Of a stretch of 64,000 nt of DNA, positions 521 to 36,180 are shown in pieces. How positions within the stretch are numbered: the first letter of the stretch is position 1; each line of letters opens with the position of its first letter. The notes under the pieces were generated by a model. The model made no database searches. It was given only the letters and a program-made list of their open reading frames with translations, and was not told the origin of the DNA. Origin of the DNA: Sneathiella marina (lineage in GTDB: Bacteria > Pseudomonadota > Alphaproteobacteria > Sneathiellales > Sneathiellaceae); the NCBI RefSeq assembly GCF_023746535.1, contig NZ_CP098747.1, positions 1,804,364-1,868,363 on the forward strand, read 5' to 3'. Position numbers and translations under genes: made by a program.

Positions 521-1894
521 ATGTTTGGAAAGAGAGCAGATTATTCCGGCCAAAGGGGGTTGAAAGAAGAACCAGTTGAATGGACTGGCAAATCTACCGT
601 TCAACAAATAAAGAATAAAAAGGCACTTGATGGACCGCTATTAGATACGTTTGATAGAGTACGCCGTCGTTTCTTCGATCGTGTTGACCCAAATGTCGCC
701 ATGACGCTGGCCCCGGATCTATTGTCCCAACGTATTCGGGATGCCGTTGTCAAAATAGTTGATGAGGAAAATCTATCGTTGAACGGTACCGAGCAAGCGC
801 TAATCGCTCGCGAACTATTTGATGATATAGCTGGAATAGGGCCAATCGAAGGATTGCTGTCAGATCCGCATATTAGCGATATTTTGGTCAATGGGCCAAA
901 TGCGATTTATGTTGAACGCAATGGCAAGTTAGAGCGAACGGATCTGAAATTTCGGGATGATGCACATGTATTGGAAACCGCGCGGCGGATAGCGGCATCT
1001 GTGGGACGGCGAATAGATGAGTCAAACCCGATGGTTGACGCCCGGCTGGTTGATGGCAGCCGCGTAAATGTCATTGCGCCTCCCTTATCGGTATATGGCA
1101 CCATCATCTCCATTCGCAAATTTTCAAAAGAAATAATGAATCTTGACGAGATGTGCGCTCGAAGGTCTTTTTCGCCGCAAATACATGCCCTTCTGAAACT
1201 CTCCGTTAGATGCCGGCTGAATATTTTGATCGCCGGAGGAACCGGAACAGGAAAGACCACACTTCTTAACGCCCTTTCCGGATTGATCGATGAGCATGAA
1301 CGCATCGTCACAATTGAAGATTCTGCCGAGATGTGCTTGCAGCGATCTCATGTGGTGAGTTTGGAAACCCGTCAAAAAAATACGGAAGGGCAGGGAGAGG
1401 TGTCGCAACGGGACTTATTGAGAAATTCCCTGCGTATGCGGCCAGATAGAATTATTGTCGGAGAGGTCAGGGGCGCGGAAGTGCACGACATGCTTCAGGC
1501 CATGAATACTGGTCATGACGGCTCGATGTCGACAATTCATGCAAATACATCGCGGGATGCGTTGTTGCGCCTTGAAAATTTGATTCTATCAAGCCAGGCG
1601 AATTATCACAGCAAGGGGTCCAGACGGCAAATTGCCAGCGCAATCGACATGGTTATCCATGTCGACAGGCAGCAGGACGGGCGCCGGTTTATCAGAAATA
1701 TTACGGAAATTGTTGGCCTGGAGGGGGATGTCATTACCAGCCAGGATATATTTACCTACGATAAAACAAGGGATCTGTCAGACGATTTCTCGCAGAATTC
1801 ACGGTATATTTGCAGCGGGATCCGGCCTGTGTTTCACGGAAAAATAGATAAATACAAACAATATAATAATCTGTCCGAAGTATTTTCCTCATGA
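521..1894 (+). CDS. cpaF: Tad pilus motor ATPase CpaF/TadA
   Basis: Secretion ATPase of the type II/IV family that drives Flp pilus assembly at the inner membrane. The ATG at 521 gives 457 residues; a TTG at 491 would add ten residues but overlaps the upstream gene. Walker A (GGTGTGKTT) lies near residues 239-247 and Walker B near 310-317 in a segment containing IIVGEVRG. The downstream segment with TGHDGSMSTIHAN matches the conserved His-box region of this family. The N-terminal ~130 residues form the usual three-helix and linker domain. Its stop overlaps the tadB start by ATGA, implying translational coupling. Length and motifs are complete. Confidence 0.95.
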   Translation: MFGKRADYSGQRGLKEEPVEWTGKSTVQQIKNKKALDGPLLDTFDRVRRRFFDRVDPNVAMTLAPDLLSQRIRDAVVKIVDEENLSLNGTEQALIARELFDDIAGIGPIEGLLSDPHISDILVNGPNAIYVERNGKLERTDLKFRDDAHVLETARRIAASVGRRIDESNPMVDARLVDGSRVNVIAPPLSVYGTIISIRKFSKEIMNLDEMCARRSFSPQIHALLKLSVRCRLNILIAGGTGTGKTTLLNALSGLIDEHERIVTIEDSAEMCLQRSHVVSLETRQKNTEGQGEVSQRDLLRNSLRMRPDRIIVGEVRGAEVHDMLQAMNTGHDGSMSTIHANTSRDALLRLENLILSSQANYHSKGSRRQIASAIDMVIHVDRQQDGRRFIRNITEIVGLEGDVITSQDIFTYDKTRDLSDDFSQNSRYICSGIRPVFHGKIDKYKQYNNLSEVFSS

Positions 1895-2847
1895 GCTTGC
1901 CAGATTATACGGATTTATCGGCTTTCAACCTACAGCTAGGCATTTGCGCCGGTTTCCTCTTCTCCGGCTGCTATATTGGATTTACCCTTTATCGGGCCTG
2001 GCGGAAAAAACTGCGTCAATGGTCAGTAAGACTATCAGATATACCCGAATTTGATGCCCTGGATTCCGATGAAAAACAAATGGATTTGCCAGAGCTCATC
2101 TTAAGCCCGGAACAGAGTAAAAGGAACATTTGGCGGTATATTTTTGAGAGTGAGTGGCCCAAACGCCTTCATTTGATTTGTGCATGTTCTGTTGCACTCG
2201 TCGGCTTCCTGTTCCCTGAATTCCTATCATTCGTCTTTGTTCTTCTGGTCGTGTTGAGCATGAGCTGGACCTTGCTTTGGGGGGTGAACAAACTAAGCAA
2301 ACGTCGTACAAATCTGTTTTTGAACCAGCTGCCGGAAGCAATAGATATCATTGTTCGAGGCGCCCAGCTCGGGAAATCAATTTCACAAAATCTGTCGATT
2401 GTCGGTGAGGAAATGCCTGCACCAGCCGGCCCTATATTTCGGCAACTTTCACATCAACTCAGTCTTGGGGTGGATCTGGAGACGGCCCTTTTATCCATGC
2501 GAGAAATCTCGAATATCAAAGAGATACAATTTTTAGCAACGACGTTGGCGCTTCAACGGGAGTTTGGCGGGGAGTATGCCAAGATATTGGAAGACTTAAG
2601 CCGTCTGCTCAGGGATCGCCAGGCTCATATTCTAAAATCAAAGGCGCTGACGTCGGAAGCGAGGCTTTCTGCAAAAGTTATCTCTGCAATGACAATAGCC
2701 GTATTGGGTTTTTTGGCGATTACAAACGAAACACAGTTTGAATTTCTTCTCCATGACCCGTCTGGACGTCTTCTGCTGCTTTATTGCCTTATCAGCAACG
2801 TCGTCGGATTGTTCTCCGTTTCCTTTTTTATAAAGGGCGTAAAATGA
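1891..2847 (+). CDS. tadB: Tad pilus inner-membrane platform protein TadB
   Basis: A 318-residue inner-membrane protein of the T2SF (GspF) family. A hydrophobic segment lies near residues 15-33, two more near 93-131, and a C-terminal pair near 258-280 and 293-315. Between them is the cytoplasmic T2SF domain, starting around LPEAIDIIVRGAQLG (147-161). With TadC it forms the platform on which CpaF acts. The start overlaps the cpaF stop (ATGA at 1891), and the stop overlaps the tadC start at 2844 in the same way. TadB and TadC are easily confused; the order after cpaF and the length support TadB. Confidence 0.92.
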   Translation: MSLPDYTDLSAFNLQLGICAGFLFSGCYIGFTLYRAWRKKLRQWSVRLSDIPEFDALDSDEKQMDLPELILSPEQSKRNIWRYIFESEWPKRLHLICACSVALVGFLFPEFLSFVFVLLVVLSMSWTLLWGVNKLSKRRTNLFLNQLPEAIDIIVRGAQLGKSISQNLSIVGEEMPAPAGPIFRQLSHQLSLGVDLETALLSMREISNIKEIQFLATTLALQREFGGEYAKILEDLSRLLRDRQAHILKSKALTSEARLSAKVISAMTIAVLGFLAITNETQFEFLLHDPSGRLLLLYCLISNVVGLFSVSFFIKGVK

Positions 2848-3812
2848 CCTGGGCTCCGGATTTTCCAGCATATGTTTTCCCAATTTTCAGCTGTTTTCTG
2901 TTTATTTTCGGCATTATTCTTCTCTGGGCGGATCATCGTCAAAGGAAGTATTTATACCTCGATACCCGGCTGGCCTATTACATACAGACAGAGGGCCAGT
3001 TCAATGCAGCGGGAAAATCCCATATGCCCGACCTGCTCTCGGCAAATCAGGCTCAATTTCCGACGAGTGTCAGCCAGCAGGGGCGTTTTTTCAGGAGATT
3101 TTACTCAGGCCGGGAATATTTGGAGCGGCAAATGGCGCAAGCAGGATTTACCGGATCCTCCGCTATATCATTGTTTTATACCTGCATGATACTGACTGGT
3201 ATGGCAGGAGGAATTCTCGCCCTAAATCTTAAAATTGGCCTTCGTCTCCTGAATACCGGTACAGGGGCGATTTTTTTCGATGTTGTTTTCTACGCAAGTA
3301 CTTTCAGTATAATCCCCGTGTTAATTCTCAGGCTTCTTGTTCGAAAAAGGCGGGAAGAACTGGAAATGCATGTTCCTGATTTGATTGATCTTCTGGTTCT
3401 TTGCGTTGGCACAGGCTTAACGCTGGAGGCGAGCTTGCGGAAAGTGGCGGAAGTTATGGGTACGTTGTCTCCGGTCCTGTCCAAAGAAATGAAAACAATG
3501 CTGAACGAGCTTAAGGTTTTACCGGATAAATCCTCGGCGTTTATAAATCTTCAGAACCGGACATCATCCGACGGGCTGAAGTATCTTTTTATGGCATTGT
3601 ATCAATCAGAAATTTATGGAACTTCTGTTGCTATCGCTCTTCGTTCGGTCGCTGCCGACAATCGAAAGAGAAGAATGATCTCTGTCGAGACCACTGCCGC
3701 TCGTCTTCCGGTTCTTTTAAGCTTGCCTCTCATGATTTTTATTCTGCCGCCTGTTATTGCGTTGTCAGCAGGGCCGGGTTTCATTTTAATGCTTCGTGTA
3801 ATTGGCAATTAG
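2844..3812 (+). CDS. tadC: Tad pilus inner-membrane platform protein TadC
   Basis: Second T2SF-family platform protein, 322 residues from the ATG at 2844. A TTG at 2784 would lengthen it into tadB and is unlikely. It has an N-terminal membrane helix (about residues 9-29), two central helices, the T2SF domain beginning at HVPDLIDLLVLCVGTGLTLE, and a C-terminal hydrophobic helix ending near the stop. The domain recurs in TadB, which fits the TadB/TadC pair. ATGA overlap with tadB and a two-base gap to tadD show one transcript. Confidence 0.92.
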   Translation: MTWAPDFPAYVFPIFSCFLFIFGIILLWADHRQRKYLYLDTRLAYYIQTEGQFNAAGKSHMPDLLSANQAQFPTSVSQQGRFFRRFYSGREYLERQMAQAGFTGSSAISLFYTCMILTGMAGGILALNLKIGLRLLNTGTGAIFFDVVFYASTFSIIPVLILRLLVRKRREELEMHVPDLIDLLVLCVGTGLTLEASLRKVAEVMGTLSPVLSKEMKTMLNELKVLPDKSSAFINLQNRTSSDGLKYLFMALYQSEIYGTSVAIALRSVAADNRKRRMISVETTAARLPVLLSLPLMIFILPPVIALSAGPGFILMLRVIGN

Positions 3813-3814
3813 GA

Positions 3815-4651
3815 ATGTATTTTTTTGGAAAACTGCATGCATTTCTATTGCTGGGATATTTATGTGGCTGCATGCCCATTGCCGAAATATTGAGAATACC
3901 TGACGTTGAGACAGAAGAGGCGAGTAGAAAACAGTCCTTAAAAATTGCCTCGATCTCAGAAGCTGTCGGGAATTATGCAGCGGCAATTGACATTTATTTG
4001 AAACTGCTTTCGACAGATCCCACCAATGAGGAATTGTTGTTCAGGCTCGCCAGTAGTTACTTGAAAGCAGGGGTCATAACAGAGGCGGCGGATGTATTTG
4101 AACGGCTTGATAAACTGGACCCGGATAACAAAGAAACACAGTTGGCATTGGGCCGGATAAATCTCAGCTTGTTTCGTCCTGAAATTGCAAAAATATATTT
4201 CGAGAAGGCAAACCGGCTTGACCCAACAGATTATAAGGCCCTGTCCGGCCTTGGCATTACTGAAGACATGGCGGGAAATCATGAAATCGCCAGATCGTTT
4301 TTTAACGAAGCACTGGTAACGAGTCCGGACAAGAGGGTTATCAAGAACAATATGGCTCTATCATACCTGATGGAAGGGAAATTTAACACGTCAATTCAGT
4401 TGTTTAACGAGATTGCCTTTGATGGCAGATCCAGTCAGATTATGAGACAAAACCTTGCGCTGGCCTATGGTCTTGCAGGCGACCGGGAAGCGGCGAGGCG
4501 TATTAGCGCTCTCGATCTGGACCCGGAGTCAACTGAGGCAAATCTCAGATATTATGAGCTACTACGACAATTAAAGAACGACGTAACAATTCGCCGGTTG
4601 TTGTTAGGAACATCGGGACCGGAAACTTCTCTAAGTGAAGGGTCACCCTAG
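3815..4651 (+). CDS. tadD: Tad pilus lipoprotein TadD with TPR repeats
   Basis: A 278-residue TPR protein. The first 19 residues form a lipoprotein signal with an LCGC lipobox, so lipidation at Cys19 is expected. From about residue 45 to 210 there are successive TPR helices (segments such as AAIDIYLKLLSTDPTNEEL and AADVFERLDKLDPDNKETQ). TadD is thought to act as a pilotin-like factor for the secretin or to help machine assembly. It sits between tadC and tadE with no gap to the next gene, so it belongs to the same operon. Confidence 0.9.
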   Translation: MYFFGKLHAFLLLGYLCGCMPIAEILRIPDVETEEASRKQSLKIASISEAVGNYAAAIDIYLKLLSTDPTNEELLFRLASSYLKAGVITEAADVFERLDKLDPDNKETQLALGRINLSLFRPEIAKIYFEKANRLDPTDYKALSGLGITEDMAGNHEIARSFFNEALVTSPDKRVIKNNMALSYLMEGKFNTSIQLFNEIAFDGRSSQIMRQNLALAYGLAGDREAARRISALDLDPESTEANLRYYELLRQLKNDVTIRRLLLGTSGPETSLSEGSP

Positions 4652-30967: not shown

Positions 30968-31297
30968 CTATTTTTTTCCGATTTCGTTTACGACGGCTTG
31001 CAATGCAGCGAGGTTTTCTGGAATGGCACTTCCTGAGATAAGGTCTTGTGAAGCCTGAGCTGCAGCAGCAGGATCAGTTAAAAGCAGTTGTTTTGACGCG
31101 GCAATTGTTATTGCGTTGTGAATGGAGAAACTATGTTGCTGCTGAGCAATCACATTTTGCAATGCAAGTCCAATACTATGGGCCATTTGCTGGTATAAAA
31201 TTCCCATGGCCTCGGCTGGTGCATCTCCAAGAACGCTCAAGTTTACTTGAGCAATCGAGCCGGTAATCTGGCTGTTCACATATGACTCCGATGTCAT
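30968..31297 (-). CDS. RebB family R-body protein (Reb7)
   Basis: A 109-residue RebB-domain protein. The core VNSQITGSIAQVNLSVLGDAPAEAMGILYQQMAHSIGLALQNVIAQQQHS has the family layout: a start helix, the APAxxMG turn, YQxMA, and the QN..xxQQ helix. RebB-type proteins polymerise into R-bodies, insoluble ribbons rolled into a cylinder in the cytoplasm. AAAGGAG seven bases before the ATG suggests strong translation. It is the last of seven paralogues; a TTGAT/ATCAA inverted repeat lies 17-32 bases upstream of its start. Confidence 0.88.
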   Translation of the reverse strand: MTSESYVNSQITGSIAQVNLSVLGDAPAEAMGILYQQMAHSIGLALQNVIAQQQHSFSIHNAITIAASKQLLLTDPAAAAQASQDLISGSAIPENLAALQAVVNEIGKK

Positions 31298-31364
31298 TCT
31301 CTGTCTCCTTTACTTGATCTGCAAATCAACTATCTGATTGAGGGAAATCTTTTGTAAGAAAGTA

Positions 31365-31733
31365 CTAATTGTCCATATGTTTATTCATGTGATTGGGCGA
31401 CTGGACCGGCTGCTGAAAATCATATTGACCGTATGTCCTTTGATCATAGAAAGCAGGAGATTCTAGTCGGCGAGAGGAGAGATTGGCAGTTTGAGACAAT
31501 ATGGATTGTAGATTCTGTGTTAGAGAAGCTAATCCGAGGCTGTACATATGCTGTTGATTAGAAACAGAGTTTTGCATCGAAGTCCCGATTGACTGCGCAG
31601 TGGTTTGATACAGTGTCCCGATTGCCTGGGCAGGTGCGAGCCCAAGGTTTATGGTATTTGCCTGCGTAATGGCGTCAGTAACTTGACTATTGACCGACTT
31701 TATTGATGCAGGTCCCTTTTGTTTTTCTGTCAT
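31365..31733 (-). CDS. RebB family R-body protein with Gln/Tyr/Asn-rich tail (Reb6)
   Basis: A 122-residue paralogue. The N-terminal ~70 residues hold the RebB core (VNSQVTDAITQANTINLGLAPAQAIGTLYQTTAQSIGTSMQN). After it the sequence leaves the family: an Arg-Arg segment is followed by an aromatic and amide-rich tail (FYDQRTYGQYDFQQPVQ), unlike the Ala-rich ends of its neighbours. Such a tail could mediate lateral contacts in the polymer or terminate assembly; that is inference. A 12-base perfect inverted repeat lies just upstream, between this gene and the preceding paralogue. Confidence 0.83.
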   Translation of the reverse strand: MTEKQKGPASIKSVNSQVTDAITQANTINLGLAPAQAIGTLYQTTAQSIGTSMQNSVSNQQHMYSLGLASLTQNLQSILSQTANLSSRRLESPAFYDQRTYGQYDFQQPVQSPNHMNKHMDN

Positions 31734-31767
31734 GTATATTTCCTGTGAATTGCTGGAGCCGGAATTC

Positions 31768-31808
31768 TGAACATTACGTACCCTGTTAAAAGGAGGACGT
31801 AATGTTCA
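31768..31808. repeat. 12-base inverted repeat between Reb5 and Reb6 genes
   Basis: TGAACATTACGT (31768-31779) and ACGTAATGTTCA (31797-31808) are perfectly complementary with a 17-base loop. No T-tract follows on the minus strand, so it is not a standard terminator. The loop contains CCTCCTTTT on the transcribed strand, complementary to a ribosome-binding sequence. It may be an mRNA processing or stability hairpin in the reb transcript, or an operator. Confidence 0.6.
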
Positions 31809-31844
31809 AAACTGTGTCGGAAATATTATTCCTCCGATGTCAAT

Positions 31845-32201
31845 CTACGCTGTGTTATATCTTGGGGTAGTGTCGGGCTTTTCGAATCCCGACAAGACAC
31901 CCTTCAACGCCGTAATTGTTTCAGCAACCGGATTTCCACTTAAAATCTCTTGAGTAGCCTTGCCTTCTGCCGCTACATCCAGTGTATACAGGAGTGTCAC
32001 TGCCCCTGTAACAACCGCAGAATCTATTGTATTCTTATGTTGTTGATTGGAGACCATATTCTGCATGGACATACCAGTGGACTGCGCCATCATTTGATAG
32101 AGCATGCCCATAGATTCCGCCGGTGCATCACCTAGAACCTTTACGTTAGTTTGCGAAATTGCGTCCGTGATTTGATCATTTACCCAGGTCTTGTCTGCCA
32201 T
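31845..32201 (-). CDS. RebB family R-body protein (Reb5)
   Basis: A 118-residue RebB-domain protein with the consensus core VNDQITDAISQTNVKVLGDAPAESMGMLYQMMAQSTGMSMQNMVSNQQH. Its central region (DSAVVTGAVTLLYTLDVAAEGKATQEILSGNPVAETITALKGVL) matches Reb3, Reb4 and Reb7 in order, so the four form the main structural subgroup. Its AAAGGAG ribosome site lies seven bases before the ATG. A proline/threonine tail of about ten residues ends the protein. It is probably a major ribbon component, by family only. Confidence 0.9.
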   Translation of the reverse strand: MADKTWVNDQITDAISQTNVKVLGDAPAESMGMLYQMMAQSTGMSMQNMVSNQQHKNTIDSAVVTGAVTLLYTLDVAAEGKATQEILSGNPVAETITALKGVLSGFEKPDTTPRYNTA

Positions 32202-32239
32202 TATTAGGCTCCTTTATCTGTAAAGTGATGGGGTTTAGA

Positions 32240-32560
32240 TTAGAATGATTTAGCGGCACCTTTTAGGGCGACTAATGCTTCAGCAACCGGATTGCCACCT
32301 AGCATTTCCGACGTAGATTTTGAATCTGCCGCCATGGACATGGCGTACAATACATTTGTTCCCTGCGTGGTGACTGCCAGATCAATACTATTTGCACCTT
32401 GTTGGTTGGAAACAGCGTTCTGCATACCAGCTCCAACAACTTGAGCTAACACTTGATATGAATTTGCCATTGCGATTGACGGGGCGTCACCAATCAAGCT
32501 GACATTTGTTTGAGTAATTGCATCGGTGATCATTGCATTCATTGGTGTGGGTTCTGCCAT
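32240..32560 (-). CDS. RebB family R-body protein (Reb4)
   Basis: A 106-residue RebB-domain protein, the shortest of the main subgroup. The core MNAMITDAITQTNVSLIGDAPSIAMANSYQVLAQVVGAGMQNAVSNQQGAN has Ser-Ile for the usual Ala-Gln/Glu after the proline and lacks the charged tail of its neighbours. GAGGAG stands eight bases upstream of the ATG. It is separated from Reb5 and Reb3 by 38 and 37 bases, so it is co-transcribed with them. Confidence 0.9.
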   Translation of the reverse strand: MAEPTPMNAMITDAITQTNVSLIGDAPSIAMANSYQVLAQVVGAGMQNAVSNQQGANSIDLAVTTQGTNVLYAMSMAADSKSTSEMLGGNPVAEALVALKGAAKSF

Positions 32561-32597
32561 GATATTATCTCCTCGTATAATAATTTATGTCTATGGA

Positions 32598-32954
32598 TTA
32601 ATCGGTATCTGACTTCTGTGATGATTGCGCTTTTTTCAATTCAAGAATGATAGCCCTGAGCGCGGAGACTATTTCTGCATTTGCATTTCCGGATAAGATT
32701 TCCTGGGATGCTTTTACTTCCGATACTGAATCAATGCTGTACAGCATTGCGATGCCCTGACTGACAATCGCATTATCTATCGTATTCATGCTGTGTTGAT
32801 TTGCGACAGCGTTCTGCATGGAAACACCAACTGCTTGGGCCATCATCTGATAGGCTGTCGCCATCGACTGTGCCGGTGCCCCGCCTAATACGGTCAGGTT
32901 CGATTGAGTTACGGCGTCGGTAATCTTGTTATTGACTGGCGTGTCATTTGCCAT
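32598..32954 (-). CDS. RebB family R-body protein (Reb3)
   Basis: A 118-residue RebB-domain protein. The core VNNKITDAVTQSNLTVLGGAPAQSMATAYQMMAQAVGVSMQNAVANQH fits the family, and the end is a Lys/Ser-rich stretch (LKKAQSSQKSDTD). AAAGGGA precedes the ATG by seven bases. A 203-base gap with a terminator-like hairpin separates it from Reb2, so it may open the second transcription unit Reb3-Reb7 with a promoter in 32955-33075. Confidence 0.9.
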   Translation of the reverse strand: MANDTPVNNKITDAVTQSNLTVLGGAPAQSMATAYQMMAQAVGVSMQNAVANQHSMNTIDNAIVSQGIAMLYSIDSVSEVKASQEILSGNANAEIVSALRAIILELKKAQSSQKSDTD

Positions 32955-33075
32955 CGTCAGGTCCCTTTTCTCAATTACTATTCCAGCTAAAAAGCTTTAT
33001 CCTCTTTCAATGAGGACAAGACGACTGATTTTGAGAAACTGTGACGTGAAAGTAAGAATTTCTTGCCAGGCATGC

Positions 33076-33102
33076 AAAAACTCTCGGCAATTTCTGGCCG
33101 AG
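33076..33102 (-). terminator. Terminator-like hairpin after Reb2
   Basis: On the minus strand CTCGGC pairs with GCCGAG across an 8-base loop (33083-33102), followed by AG and five T residues. The stem is short, so termination may be partial. It lies 56 bases past the Reb2 stop and splits the seven reb genes into Reb1-Reb2 and Reb3-Reb7. Confidence 0.55.
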
Positions 33103-33157
33103 GACTGAATGTTTTGAATTAGGGGTGGGTGTATTTCTAGCACATAAAAGGCATTCC

Positions 33158-33616
33158 TTATCCACCCATTTGCTTGACGATCTTATCCATTGCTACTGCA
33201 GTTGCCGCCACGGCATCTGCCGTAATGCCGGCAATTTCCTGGCTGGTTTGTGCGGCCAATGCTGTGCCGCCGGCACTTGTGACGGCGTTAAGGCTGGTAA
33301 CGGCAGCCTGAGTTTGCGCGTTTAATGCCTGAGTTATTGCCGCTGTTTGAGCATTGTAGGACTCACCTATCGTCGCCTTTTGAGCACTGATCGCTACAGC
33401 CTCAGCATTCTTTAGTGCAACCAGAGCGGCCGCGCCGGAACTATTGACACTGTTTAATAAATTTGAATTGATTGTCGCATTTTCCAGTGATAATCCCGAA
33501 GAATGTGCGGCAAACTGGTAAAGCAAATTCATTGCGAAAGAAGCGGAATCCCGTATCTCTGCATTTGGTGAAGTGCTGTCGGTCGAAGTTTCAGCTGAAT
33601 CTGGGGTAGGGGTCAT
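33158..33616 (-). CDS. Divergent RebB-like protein with Ala/Gln-rich helical extension (Reb2)
   Basis: A 152-residue protein, the longest of the cluster. A Ser/Thr/Pro-rich N-terminus replaces the usual start helix. The middle ASFAMNLLYQFAAHSSGLSLENATINSNLLNSVNS keeps the YQ..A..SG..xxN pattern of RebB proteins. The C-terminal half is an Ala/Gln/Thr-rich helix (AAITQALNAQTQAAVTSLNA and onward) with a possible coiled-coil repeat. It is separated from Reb1 by 46 bases. A minor, capping or assembly role is a guess; membership of the family is less certain than for the others. Confidence 0.7.
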   Translation of the reverse strand: MTPTPDSAETSTDSTSPNAEIRDSASFAMNLLYQFAAHSSGLSLENATINSNLLNSVNSSGAAALVALKNAEAVAISAQKATIGESYNAQTAAITQALNAQTQAAVTSLNAVTSAGGTALAAQTSQEIAGITADAVAATAVAMDKIVKQMGG

Positions 33617-33662
33617 TAGGTGTCCTGGAGAATAGAGTGTTGCAGATTACAGGTTTCAAAAT

Positions 33663-34079
33663 TTATCTCGTCGCGCCTTTAGTTTCGGTCGCTGGCGAGG
33701 ACTTTGTTTCCCTGTCTTTATCCGGCAGATTTGTTGATTGCTTTGCCACCTCTTCTGTCGATGGCTTTTCGCTAGATTCCGGAGTGTTTCCTGCCAGTGA
33801 CAAAAGGCTTTTGAGATAGCTAACTCTCTCTTCAAGCGTAAGCTTTTCAACTTGATCTGCTGAGTTAGTGCGTAAAATCCCGCTCACACTTGCCGCTGCT
33901 GCCGCCATGCCAATAATGTTTAAGTGCTGTTGATTAGATACAGCATTCTGTGTCGCCATTCCTGCAGATTGAGCCAAATTTAGATACATTGTCGACATGG
34001 ATTTGGAAGCAGAGCTTCCAAGCACTATTTCATTAATAGATAATATTGATTCAATAATTTGATCATCTTTTTGCGTCAT
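33663..34079 (-). CDS. RebB family R-body protein with charged C-terminal tail (Reb1)
   Basis: A 138-residue paralogue and the first gene of the cluster. The RebB core runs IIESILSINEIVLGSSASKSMSTMYLNLAQSAGMATQNAVSNQQHLN, in which the usual APA is replaced by SAS. After residue ~95 comes a polar, Ser/Thr/Lys/Glu-rich tail of about 40 residues (SEKPSTEEVAKQSTNLPDKD) that is probably disordered. A near-FNR box lies about 62 bases upstream of the ATG in a very AT-rich region shared with the divergent sigma factor gene. Confidence 0.82.
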   Translation of the reverse strand: MTQKDDQIIESILSINEIVLGSSASKSMSTMYLNLAQSAGMATQNAVSNQQHLNIIGMAAAAASVSGILRTNSADQVEKLTLEERVSYLKSLLSLAGNTPESSEKPSTEEVAKQSTNLPDKDRETKSSPATETKGATR

Positions 34080-34358
34080 TTCAAATATTCCTAAGCATTA
34101 AAAATTTTAATTATTTTATTTAAATGGGATTGTGTTAATAAAAATCAATATATTATTAATCTATTATTCTTTTTTATTTTTATTATTTTCTTCTATGTAA
34201 TTTTTCATGCTACCGAGCAGTGAATACACACGTATTAGATTTATAAAAATAATTATATCCTCTTTAAAATAGAAATTTCAAAACCAAATACTGTCTAGGC
34301 GGCGGGCAAATTTAAGGCCACGCGTCTATCTCTTGGTCCAAATTTAAAGGGGGGAAAT
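34080..34358. promoter_or_regulatory. AT-rich divergent promoter region between reb genes and sigma factor
   Basis: A 279-base region with no ORF, extremely AT-rich from about 34085 to 34265. It contains TTAAT-AAAA-ATCAA at 34135-34148, one base from the FNR/FixK consensus. Two direct copies of CAAATTTAA(A)GG start at 34307 and 34339, 32 bases (about three helical turns) apart; the second abuts the sigma-factor ribosome site. Promoters in both directions are expected; exact ones are not assigned. Confidence 0.55.
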
Positions 34359-35063
34359 GTGGAACTAAACGGCCGATTACTGCAAGTAGATGAGAGTGCT
34401 ACAAAAGCTATCCTGGCAGGAAAATCGAAAAACTCTCTGCTAATTAAAGAATGTGATGCACAGCCGGCATCTAATGGTGTGGAAAATGCACCTGTAAAAG
34501 TTGATCCGGTTCTTTCAGAAAGCTCCCGTTGTAAACAGGAAGATTTTTGGCGAGCCTGGAATAGCCATAGAGAATACCTAAAACGGCTAAGCATGATCTG
34601 GATGAATGTGAGTGCGGCGGACGCAGAAGACGCGTTTAGCGAGGCAACTATTCGAGCGTACGAAAAATACGAGTTTCATGCCAGCCAAATTAGCAATGAA
34701 CGAGCATGGTTTGCGAGATTACTGCACAATATTTGTATTGATAAGCATCGCTCAAACAAGCGGCTCAAAACATTATGTGAACGCGTCAGGGAAATAAATA
34801 CGGTTGATTTTTCCATTTTTGAATCAACGAATTTATCCCCGGAAGGATCGTTACTCAACGAAGAATTGAGTGGATTGCTTCTCACAGCAATTAGGGAATT
34901 ACCAGACCGTTTACAAAAACCGGTAATTTTGCGGTTGGTGCAAGGTGAGGATTACGATGACATCGCAAAAGTTTTGGAGATTACGAATGACAACGCACGG
35001 AAAAGAGTACAGCAAGGTCGAAGCGCTTTACGCAGAAAACTCCTTCATATTTGGTCCGGGTAA
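34359..35063 (+). CDS. ECF-type RNA polymerase sigma factor linked to reb genes
   Basis: A 234-residue sigma-70 family protein. The GTG at 34359 has a G-rich ribosome site five bases upstream; an ATG two bases earlier is out of frame and stops at once. Region 2 spans about 66-130 (AEDAFSEATIRAYEKYEFH to ARLLHNICIDKHRSNKR) and region 4 spans 175-230 (IRELPDRLQKPVILRLVQGEDYDDIAKVLEITNDNARKRVQQGRSALRRKL). A ~60-residue N-terminal extension has no recognised domain. No anti-sigma gene is adjacent. Divergent placement next to the reb genes suggests it switches on R-body production. Confidence 0.87.
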   Translation: MELNGRLLQVDESATKAILAGKSKNSLLIKECDAQPASNGVENAPVKVDPVLSESSRCKQEDFWRAWNSHREYLKRLSMIWMNVSAADAEDAFSEATIRAYEKYEFHASQISNERAWFARLLHNICIDKHRSNKRLKTLCERVREINTVDFSIFESTNLSPEGSLLNEELSGLLLTAIRELPDRLQKPVILRLVQGEDYDDIAKVLEITNDNARKRVQQGRSALRRKLLHIWSG

Positions 35064-35229
35064 CTCGATTCTCGTCTACAGCTTAAATATAGCGTGAGTT
35101 TTTCGTTGAAGGGACTAAAAGGGAGGGCGAAATATTTTCTGCAAGCTTAGGCTATTAGTCTGGAGCGGATAACGCTAAGCTTTAAAGCTAGTTTAGCGAT
35201 CTTGTTACTTCTTGGGAATATTTAGGCAA

Positions 35230-36180
35230 ATGCATCCGGCAAAATCTGTAATATTTTTTACGACTTCCTCTGGCGCCGGTTATGGGCTGCTATTTGCGCT
35301 CATTCTGGGGAATATACTAAGTGCTCTGCCAACATATCCATATTTTCTTTTGTCAGCTTATGCTGTCTCGTTTGTCCTGATTGGATGTGGTCTGTTGTCA
35401 TCTACATTCCATCTCGGACATCCTGAAAGAGCCTGGAGGGCGTTAAGTCAATGGCGGTCTTCGTGGTTAAGCCGAGAAGGTGTCCTTGCGGTGCTGACCT
35501 TTGTGCCAGCAGGTATTTATGCTTCATACCTTATTTTCTTTTCGGAGGAATATTTTCTTTCCATTGAAATTATTGGGGTTATCGCCGTAGTTTGCTGTGT
35601 TTCTACTGTTTATTGTACCGCTATGATATATGCGAGCCTAAAAACGGTCCATGCTTGGTCGAATTGGCGGGTGCCCGCCGGATATTTATTGTTGTCCTTA
35701 ACGACCGGATGCGTGATTTTGAGCGCTTTAATGTTTTTTTGGGGCTATCAGGCTAGTTTCATAAGCGTTTTCGCCGTTGCCTTATTGCTTATTTCAGCGG
35801 CCTGGAAGCACTCTTATTGGCAATTTTTAGATAGATCTAAAAGTGCGTCTTCTCCTGAATCAGCAACAGGACTTGGCGAATTCGGTAAAGTTCGGCAGTT
35901 CGAAGTGCCTCACACGGAAGCAAATTATCTAAATAAGGAAATGGGATTTGTCGTCGCTCGAAAACATTCCGTTCGGCTTCGGCAAATAGTATTTGTCTGT
36001 GCTTTTTTTGTTCCGGCCATATTGTTGATGTTAACTTTAATGCTGGGAGCAATTGGCGCCGGATTTGCTGCCGGCATATCGATAGTTTCGCTGGCCATGG
36101 GAATATTGGTCGAACGATGGTTGTTTTTTGCAGAAGCAAAACATACGGTCAATTTGTACTACGGAGCGCATGAAGCATAG
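35230..36180 (+). CDS. DmsC-like quinol-oxidising membrane anchor, orphan
   Basis: A 316-residue integral membrane protein from the ATG at 35230 (a TTG at 35212 is possible). Eight or so hydrophobic helices, the motif STFHLGHPERAWRALSQWRSSWLSREG, and near the C-terminus NYLNKEMGFVVARKHSVRLRQ are characteristic of DmsC anchors of DMSO-reductase-type complexes, which pass quinol electrons to an Fe-S subunit. No DmsA or DmsB gene adjoins; a molybdopterin oxidoreductase lies 6.7 kb away and no four-cluster ferredoxin subunit is in the window. It follows the sigma factor by 166 bases on the same strand and ends at a terminator. Confidence 0.82.
   Translation: MHPAKSVIFFTTSSGAGYGLLFALILGNILSALPTYPYFLLSAYAVSFVLIGCGLLSSTFHLGHPERAWRALSQWRSSWLSREGVLAVLTFVPAGIYASYLIFFSEEYFLSIEIIGVIAVVCCVSTVYCTAMIYASLKTVHAWSNWRVPAGYLLLSLTTGCVILSALMFFWGYQASFISVFAVALLLISAAWKHSYWQFLDRSKSASSPESATGLGEFGKVRQFEVPHTEANYLNKEMGFVVARKHSVRLRQIVFVCAFFVPAILLMLTLMLGAIGAGFAAGISIVSLAMGILVERWLFFAEAKHTVNLYYGAHEA

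Follow-up and report, generated by a model that had tools for sequence, protein, structure and literature searches.

An array of seven reb paralogues in Sneathiella marina and its predicted control by a divergent ECF sigma factor

R-bodies are pH-driven protein springs that are of interest both for the conflict between bacteria and protists and as actuators, and the timing with which reb clusters are switched on is known for few of them. The window analyzed here, a stretch of 64,000 nucleotides (nt) from Sneathiella marina (contig NZ_CP098747.1, positions 1,804,364 to 1,868,363), contains a tandem array of seven minus-strand reb genes at 30968-34079, faced by a plus-strand gene for a sigma factor of the extracytoplasmic function (ECF) type at 34359-35063. 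A preliminary description of the DNA had proposed this arrangement, and the seven tandem paralogues were confirmed by open reading frame (ORF) calls. The genes, lettered A to G as labels of this analysis, encode small proteins of 106-152 amino acids (aa): A (30968..31297, 109 aa), B (31365..31733, 122 aa), C (31845..32201, 118 aa), D (32240..32560, 106 aa), E (32598..32954, 118 aa), F (33158..33616, 152 aa) and G (33663..34079, 138 aa), with E at the head of an E-D-C-B-A unit. Ribosome-binding sites are strong at A, C, D and E and weaker at B, F and G; strong sites therefore exist as first described, with four rather than five that are clearly strong.

Membership in the RebB family was checked with the Pfam profile PF11747, for which the curated cut-off is 24 bits. 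Six of the seven proteins pass (A at 63.2 bits, B at 72.1, C at 90.9, D at 75.6, E at 88.3 and G at 47.3), and in each of the six nearly the whole profile is covered. F scores 19.4 bits, under the cut-off; nine of its orthologues in relatives score over it (26.9-31.7 bits), three more are listed under it (21.6-21.8 bits), and F is taken as a divergent member of the family. The family assignment thus stands for the array, and the six PF11747 matches of the host genome (4.07 Mb in a single contig) all sit in the reb locus.

The facing gene (34359..35063, GTG start) encodes a protein of 234 aa that matches sigma-70 region 2 (PF04542) and region 4.2 (PF08281) over cut-off, along with the NCBIfam ECF superfamily TIGR02937 over residues 68-228, also over cut-off; no Pfam match to sigma region 3 was found in this protein. 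Regions 2 and 4 begin at about residue 62, and the N-terminal extension of about 60 residues is present in orthologues, yet its sequence is not conserved between species. These searches confirm both the ECF-type gene and the extension that had been noted at the outset. The region 4 match stops at residue 224 of 234, so that there is no fused C-terminal regulatory domain of the ECF41 type. Orthologues occur in the Sneathiella loci that cover the position. An adjacent anti-sigma gene is usual, if not universal, for ECF sigma factors; none was recognized beside this gene, whose neighbors in the window are the reb genes and dmsC (ORFs judged by eye).

The locus was compared with those of 21 further Sneathiella genomes and of one genome from the sister genus (G001). 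RebB was found in 23 of the 25 genomes of the family, including all 18 of good quality; the two without it are 65-66% complete. The Sneathiella loci keep the A to G order and the sigma gene wherever the contig reaches; recQ borders them at one end, and dms, DEAD-helicase or mscS genes border them at the other. The sequenced species S. litorea and S. sedimenti carry this locus too. A quick tree built from 150 Reb proteins places every one of the seven Sneathiella paralogues in a single clade of its own, with support of 88-100 in the Shimodaira-Hasegawa-like approximate likelihood-ratio test (SH-aLRT), and the paralogue labels require six changes, the minimum possible, versus 96 when the labels are shuffled. 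Because the tree program cautions that branches are long and alignment columns few, the branching order of the seven at the base of the tree is unsure. B and G are the most variable, with 48-68% and 33-61% identity to their orthologues, B evolving fast and G fastest; F is strongly conserved in the alignment, mostly in its C-terminal half. The reb locus was probably already present in the ancestor of Sneathiella and its sister genus. Furthermore, the single genus-wide clade of each paralogue in the quick tree supports the earlier suggestion that the seven would represent several subunit types. In Azorhizobium caulinodans, reb genes three and four are both needed, as is one or the other of genes one and two (PMC5527310), a pattern that fits specialized, partly redundant subunits. 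With seven such clades, specialization could be tested one gene at a time in a marine bacterium from the environment.

The preliminary description had also stressed that seven paralogues exceed the classic locus, an emphasis that does not survive comparison, because seven is an ordinary number. In a sample of 385 genomes of the class, 15 (five of them Sneathiella) have RebB matches, at 1-11 per genome, and Rhodospirillum centenum is reported to have six reb copies, Marinomonas mediterranea to have nine (PMC3583457). Matches over the cut-off occur in 10 of 398 genomes sampled across the phylum and in none of 14 control genomes. One of the 15 positive class genomes (G197, a single match of 16 positions) and one of the 11 phylum-sample matches (G469, under the cut-off and with stops) were left out of the locus comparison.

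It could be argued that the Reb proteins are retained for some other purpose, such as an inclusion or a scaffold, and that Sneathiella makes no contractile R-body. The divergence of F and G would suit this explanation, and a literature search joining Sneathiella and R-body returned none naming Sneathiella among the matches listed. The maintenance of seven paralogues across the genus and the nearly complete profile matches of six of them argue the other way, as does R. centenum, which has six copies and makes R-bodies (PMC3583457). We consider a purpose other than the R-body unlikely.

Upstream of E, by 91 nt, lies a conserved motif of ECF promoter type, GTCACA-N16-CGTCTT (33018..33045, minus strand). 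By its -35 region is a second element (33057..33085, minus strand), with the consensus GAGAGTTTTCGCA-N8-AAGAAAAT and two mismatches in the window, which is a candidate activator site. Across Sneathiella the sequence upstream of E reads TGAGA..TTTCGCA-N8-AAGAAA, followed by [GT]TCACA-N16-CGTC[TA]. All 22 Sneathiella loci carry the motif, 21 of them at a recognized reb gene, while the contig of the last (L054) ends before E; the distance to the called E start is 76-96 nt in 18 of the 21, the called start being further upstream in L041, L047 and L051. Counted by gene, the Sneathiella motif is present at 21 of the 150 reb genes versus 0.06 expected from shuffles, with gene windows of 350 nt that overlap between neighbors, such that one site can count for two genes. 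An extended form with a conserved TCTCA in the spacer, derived from the same Sneathiella loci that it scores, occurs once per genome in 18 of the 24 genus genomes, in all 18 at the reb locus, and its reversed control gives 0 matches in the same 24; two of the six genomes missed have no reb match, and the other four (G005, G006, G011 and G023) carry a variant. The upstream element, allowing up to three mismatches, gives 18 matches in 17 of the 24 genomes; 15 of these fall at the reb locus, and its reversed control gives one match. A terminator at 33102-33083 in the F-E gap was considered and rejected: the window has a hairpin and a T-run there, but relatives keep TGAGA..TTTCGCA with no obvious hairpin (judged by eye). 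The sequence is treated instead as part of the upstream element.

The motif accompanies one sigma factor subfamily in other lineages as well. A profile of the sigma factor gives 253-277 bits in genomes G052, G288, G725, G728 and G130 and at most 71 bits elsewhere among the 18 genomes examined; G052, G288 and G130 are themselves rows of the profile and G725 and G728 are not. The motif was defined on Sneathiella, and G725 and G728, which share a genus with G288, were added after it had been fixed. In each of these three genomes an N15 version stands at the sigma gene and at two reb genes, falling just inside the called sigma gene start in G728; altogether the motif is found at 10 of their 28 genes, a count that comes from nine separate sites at genes. 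The main cluster of G052 has 11 reb genes, one of which has the motif upstream, as does an isolated reb-like gene in another part of that genome (L087); less strict forms are found before a different reb gene and before the sigma gene, which is 17 kb away. In the sister genus (G001) the motif is 77 nt upstream of G, and a single promoter may there serve all the genes of the array. The motif is upstream of 0 of 37 genes in the ten reb loci (nine genomes) that lack the sigma subfamily, with 0.1 expected by chance; four of these loci consist of a single reb gene (L078, L082, L083 and L084). In the class sample, seven of the eight genomes with a sigma match also carry RebB, five of the seven being Sneathiella. 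Contig-end fragments (L071, L072 and L086) were counted apart in the motif counts, and L056 and L074, which repeat other loci, L058 and L076 from G130, and L087 stand outside all sets. One short contig (G122) has no motif upstream of its reb gene. We infer that the sigma factor encoded at 34359-35063 reads the E promoter.

The "dedicated sigma factor" of the preliminary description can be retained, on comparative genomics, for E-D-C-B-A, which has the promoter upstream of E, and not for G-F. A different element is conserved before rebG-F, and the reach of the sigma factor is therefore probably limited to E-D-C-B-A. The consensus upstream of G in relatives is approximately TTTRGG-N10/11-CACTTTTAAAGTG; alignment of the relatives places the element at 34260..34289 (minus strand) in the window, where it is degenerate, with three mismatches in the 13-mer. 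Exact matches to the 13-mer number 18 in the 24 genomes, 12 of them at the reb locus; the remaining six do not exceed what the reversed control gives (10). A promoter shared by G and E had been considered from a repeat (32989-33010 and 34247-34268) and was dropped, since the alignments show two different conserved elements. In the relative G006, two exact copies of the 13-mer lie 52 nt apart upstream of G (L039, 5801-5865).

A further conserved feature lies between C and B, where an inverted repeat (31765..31811, minus strand) could form a hairpin with arms of 15 nt and 17 nt between them. A long stem is found at the equivalent position in 19 of 20 Sneathiella loci, with arms of 12-23 nt that are mostly 14-28 nt apart; the arm sequence differs by clade while the pairing is kept, some of it as G-U. 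In a MAFFT alignment 85% of the stem cells are paired, versus 70.6% in shuffled and at most 47.6% in slid controls. At 12 of 15 pairs one sequence or more has changed on both sides, versus a shuffled mean of 8.1, and the covariation score is 0.513, versus 0.252 shuffled and at most 0.145 slid. No T-run follows the hairpin in the window, which suggests that processing or protection of the mRNA is likelier than termination. An Rfam scan of the whole window at gathering thresholds gave no match.

The whole is best explained as a functional R-body locus that a dedicated sigma factor controls, a reading to which we assign a probability of roughly 0.75. The sigma factor would join RNA polymerase and start transcription at 33018-33045 to give an E-D-C-B-A message, probably together with a second regulator bound at the conserved element just upstream of the promoter. 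G and F would be transcribed apart, from the different element upstream of G. The C-B hairpin could then set the ratio of E-D-C to B-A mRNA, and with it the ratio of subunits, through protection or cleavage of the message, and the seven helical proteins would be specialized parts of a coiled ribbon able to spring open. The gene families, the orthology, the promoter motif with its co-occurrence with the sigma subfamily, and the covarying hairpin were computed directly; the formation of a ribbon and a role against eukaryotic cells, e.g. grazing protists, are suggested only by analogy with Caedibacter, A. caulinodans (PMC5527310) and Pseudomonas aeruginosa PA14 (PMC8322103). A broader proposal is more tentative, and we hold it a little less probable than its negation. 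According to this proposal, an ECF subfamily would be devoted to R-bodies in several alphaproteobacterial lineages and would have a promoter of its own, [GT]TCACA-N15/16-CGTC. One of the two reb units of Sneathiella would be under its control, the covarying hairpin inside that unit would set the ratio of the seven specialized subunits, and the R-body would be a heteropolymer with an ordered arrangement, as opposed to a ribbon made from one or two proteins that can replace each other.

Several observations weigh against a dedicated sigma factor and a regulatory hairpin, and some of them can be explained differently. The bare core TCACA-N16-CGTCTT has two matches in the S. marina genome and two in the reversed control, and is therefore not specific by itself. 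In Sneathiella, no promoter site was detected before the sigma gene, which leaves autoregulation unsupported there, and the site at the G052 sigma gene fits only the looser pattern. Genome G130 has a sigma gene of the subfamily, yet it lacks any RebB match, and the motif is absent from the region before that gene. Among contig fragments, the motif of G135 is accompanied only by a weak sigma-like gene split in two frames, and G269 has a looser TTCACG form before a reb gene, with no sigma gene found. The G130 and G135 cases would be expected if the E promoter were read by another ECF sigma factor and the divergent sigma gene were a mere neighbor. The window sequence CGTCACA-N16-CGTCTT also equals the published ECF41 promoter consensus, TGTCACA-N16-CGTC (PMC3426412), except at the first base. 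This alternative is nonetheless improbable: motif and subfamily occur together in four reb-bearing lineages, the motif is absent upstream in the ten reb loci that lack the subfamily, and in G288, G725 and G728 it stands at the start of the sigma gene itself.

For the hairpin, one locus (L035) has no long stem, pairing mostly fails at the two outer positions, and a large share of the covariation reflects one switch between two clades, with the window holding a third version. Further pair types number 24 versus 23.8 in shuffles, i.e. they are at the shuffle level. These last counts, together with the fact that the RNA reading is drawn from sequence comparison, leave some room for the repeat to be a DNA operator or a leftover terminator instead of an RNA element, and its well-matched arms would also suit a dimeric DNA-binding protein. 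The persistence of pairing, some of it G-U, while the arm sequence varies by clade speaks for RNA, and the missing T-run speaks against a terminator, such that a DNA operator or old terminator appears to be the less likely interpretation, if one to be taken seriously. The weakness of the protein models likewise counts against the main reading. AlphaFold models of two of the seven Rebs are all-helical and of low confidence, with predicted template modeling scores (pTM) of 0.23 for C and 0.36 for F, the latter a single helix of 108 residues; these weak models were used only for the word "helical". The sole match of solved structures to the Reb profile has an E-value of 0.086 and is taken as chance.

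Clusters of reb genes with a sigma gene were already published in 2013 (PMC3583457; PMC3764935), and this type of locus is thus known; the newly inferred control circuit would be new as far as found in print. Neither this promoter nor this hairpin was found by title or abstract among the matches listed in the literature on reb with sigma or ECF, or on Sneathiella with R-body. The Group 2 synteny of Raymann et al. 2013 (PMC3583457) shares the cluster of reb paralogues and a sigma factor gene (HP2.3), where the likeness to the present gene is by gene type, beside reb genes. No cyclic-nucleotide-binding regulator (HP2.4), HP2.1 or HP2.2 was recognized here, by eye only, and the Group 2 account in that paper names no promoter or hairpin. 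Labrenzia alexandrii DFL-11 (PMC3764935) is likewise a marine alphaproteobacterium with an ECF sigma gene flanking its reb genes, and its R-bodies have been seen by microscopy; its three RebB homologues, however, are broken by four other genes, whereas the seven here are contiguous. Caedibacter taeniospiralis likewise has RebB-family proteins, encoded by plasmid rebA, rebB, rebC and a putative rebD, with no sigma factor mentioned in that part of the same paper (PMC3764935).

Regulation has been studied in P. aeruginosa PA14, in which the sigma factor FecI2 and the regulator RcgA are needed for reb expression, both being required for PrebP1 (PMC8322103). The likeness drawn here between FecI2 and the Sneathiella sigma factor is one of role, and the PA14 cluster has two RebP genes, RebD and RapA, as opposed to seven Rebs (PMC8322103). 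A FecI2 binding motif has been derived de novo (PMC4362757), and its overlap with the motif described here is possible. The ECF41 factors, whose promoter consensus resembles the E promoter, have a fused C-terminal regulatory domain and COE-gene neighbors (PMC3426412), while the Sneathiella protein ends after region 4. Genes without Reb homology were excluded from the analysis in PMC13430693. The predicted pair of sigma factor and promoter would allow attempts to switch on a reb operon, or sequence searches for regulation of the reb type.

Some smaller observations concern the array and its surroundings. In 10 of 20 loci the F-E gap holds an opposite-strand ORF of 245-280 aa, considered as an eighth gene of the array; it is a gene for an M24 peptidase (methionine-aminopeptidase-like), a call made by comparing the 10 sequences by eye and scanning three of the 10 with Pfam. 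These loci are L035, L036, L038, L039, L042, L043, L047, L048, L049 and L052, and do not include the window; the peptidase gene is additional to other M24 genes in the five of these 10 genomes that were searched. The sigma factor of the reb-linked subfamily in G130 (L058, 9212-10048; 272 bits) may reflect lost reb genes or another target. A sigma-like gene beside reb genes in L072 (4689-5292) extends over two overlapping frames, perhaps through a frameshift in a draft assembly. Beyond the sigma gene, the window has an orphan gene for a dmsC-like membrane anchor (35212-36180, named from its translation), both other dms subunits having been lost. The relative L040 encodes two more subunits between its sigma gene and dmsC (576-4309), judged from their translations to be a catalytic subunit of molybdopterin type (997 aa) and one that is ferredoxin-like (247 aa); several other relatives have a gap of about that size at this place.

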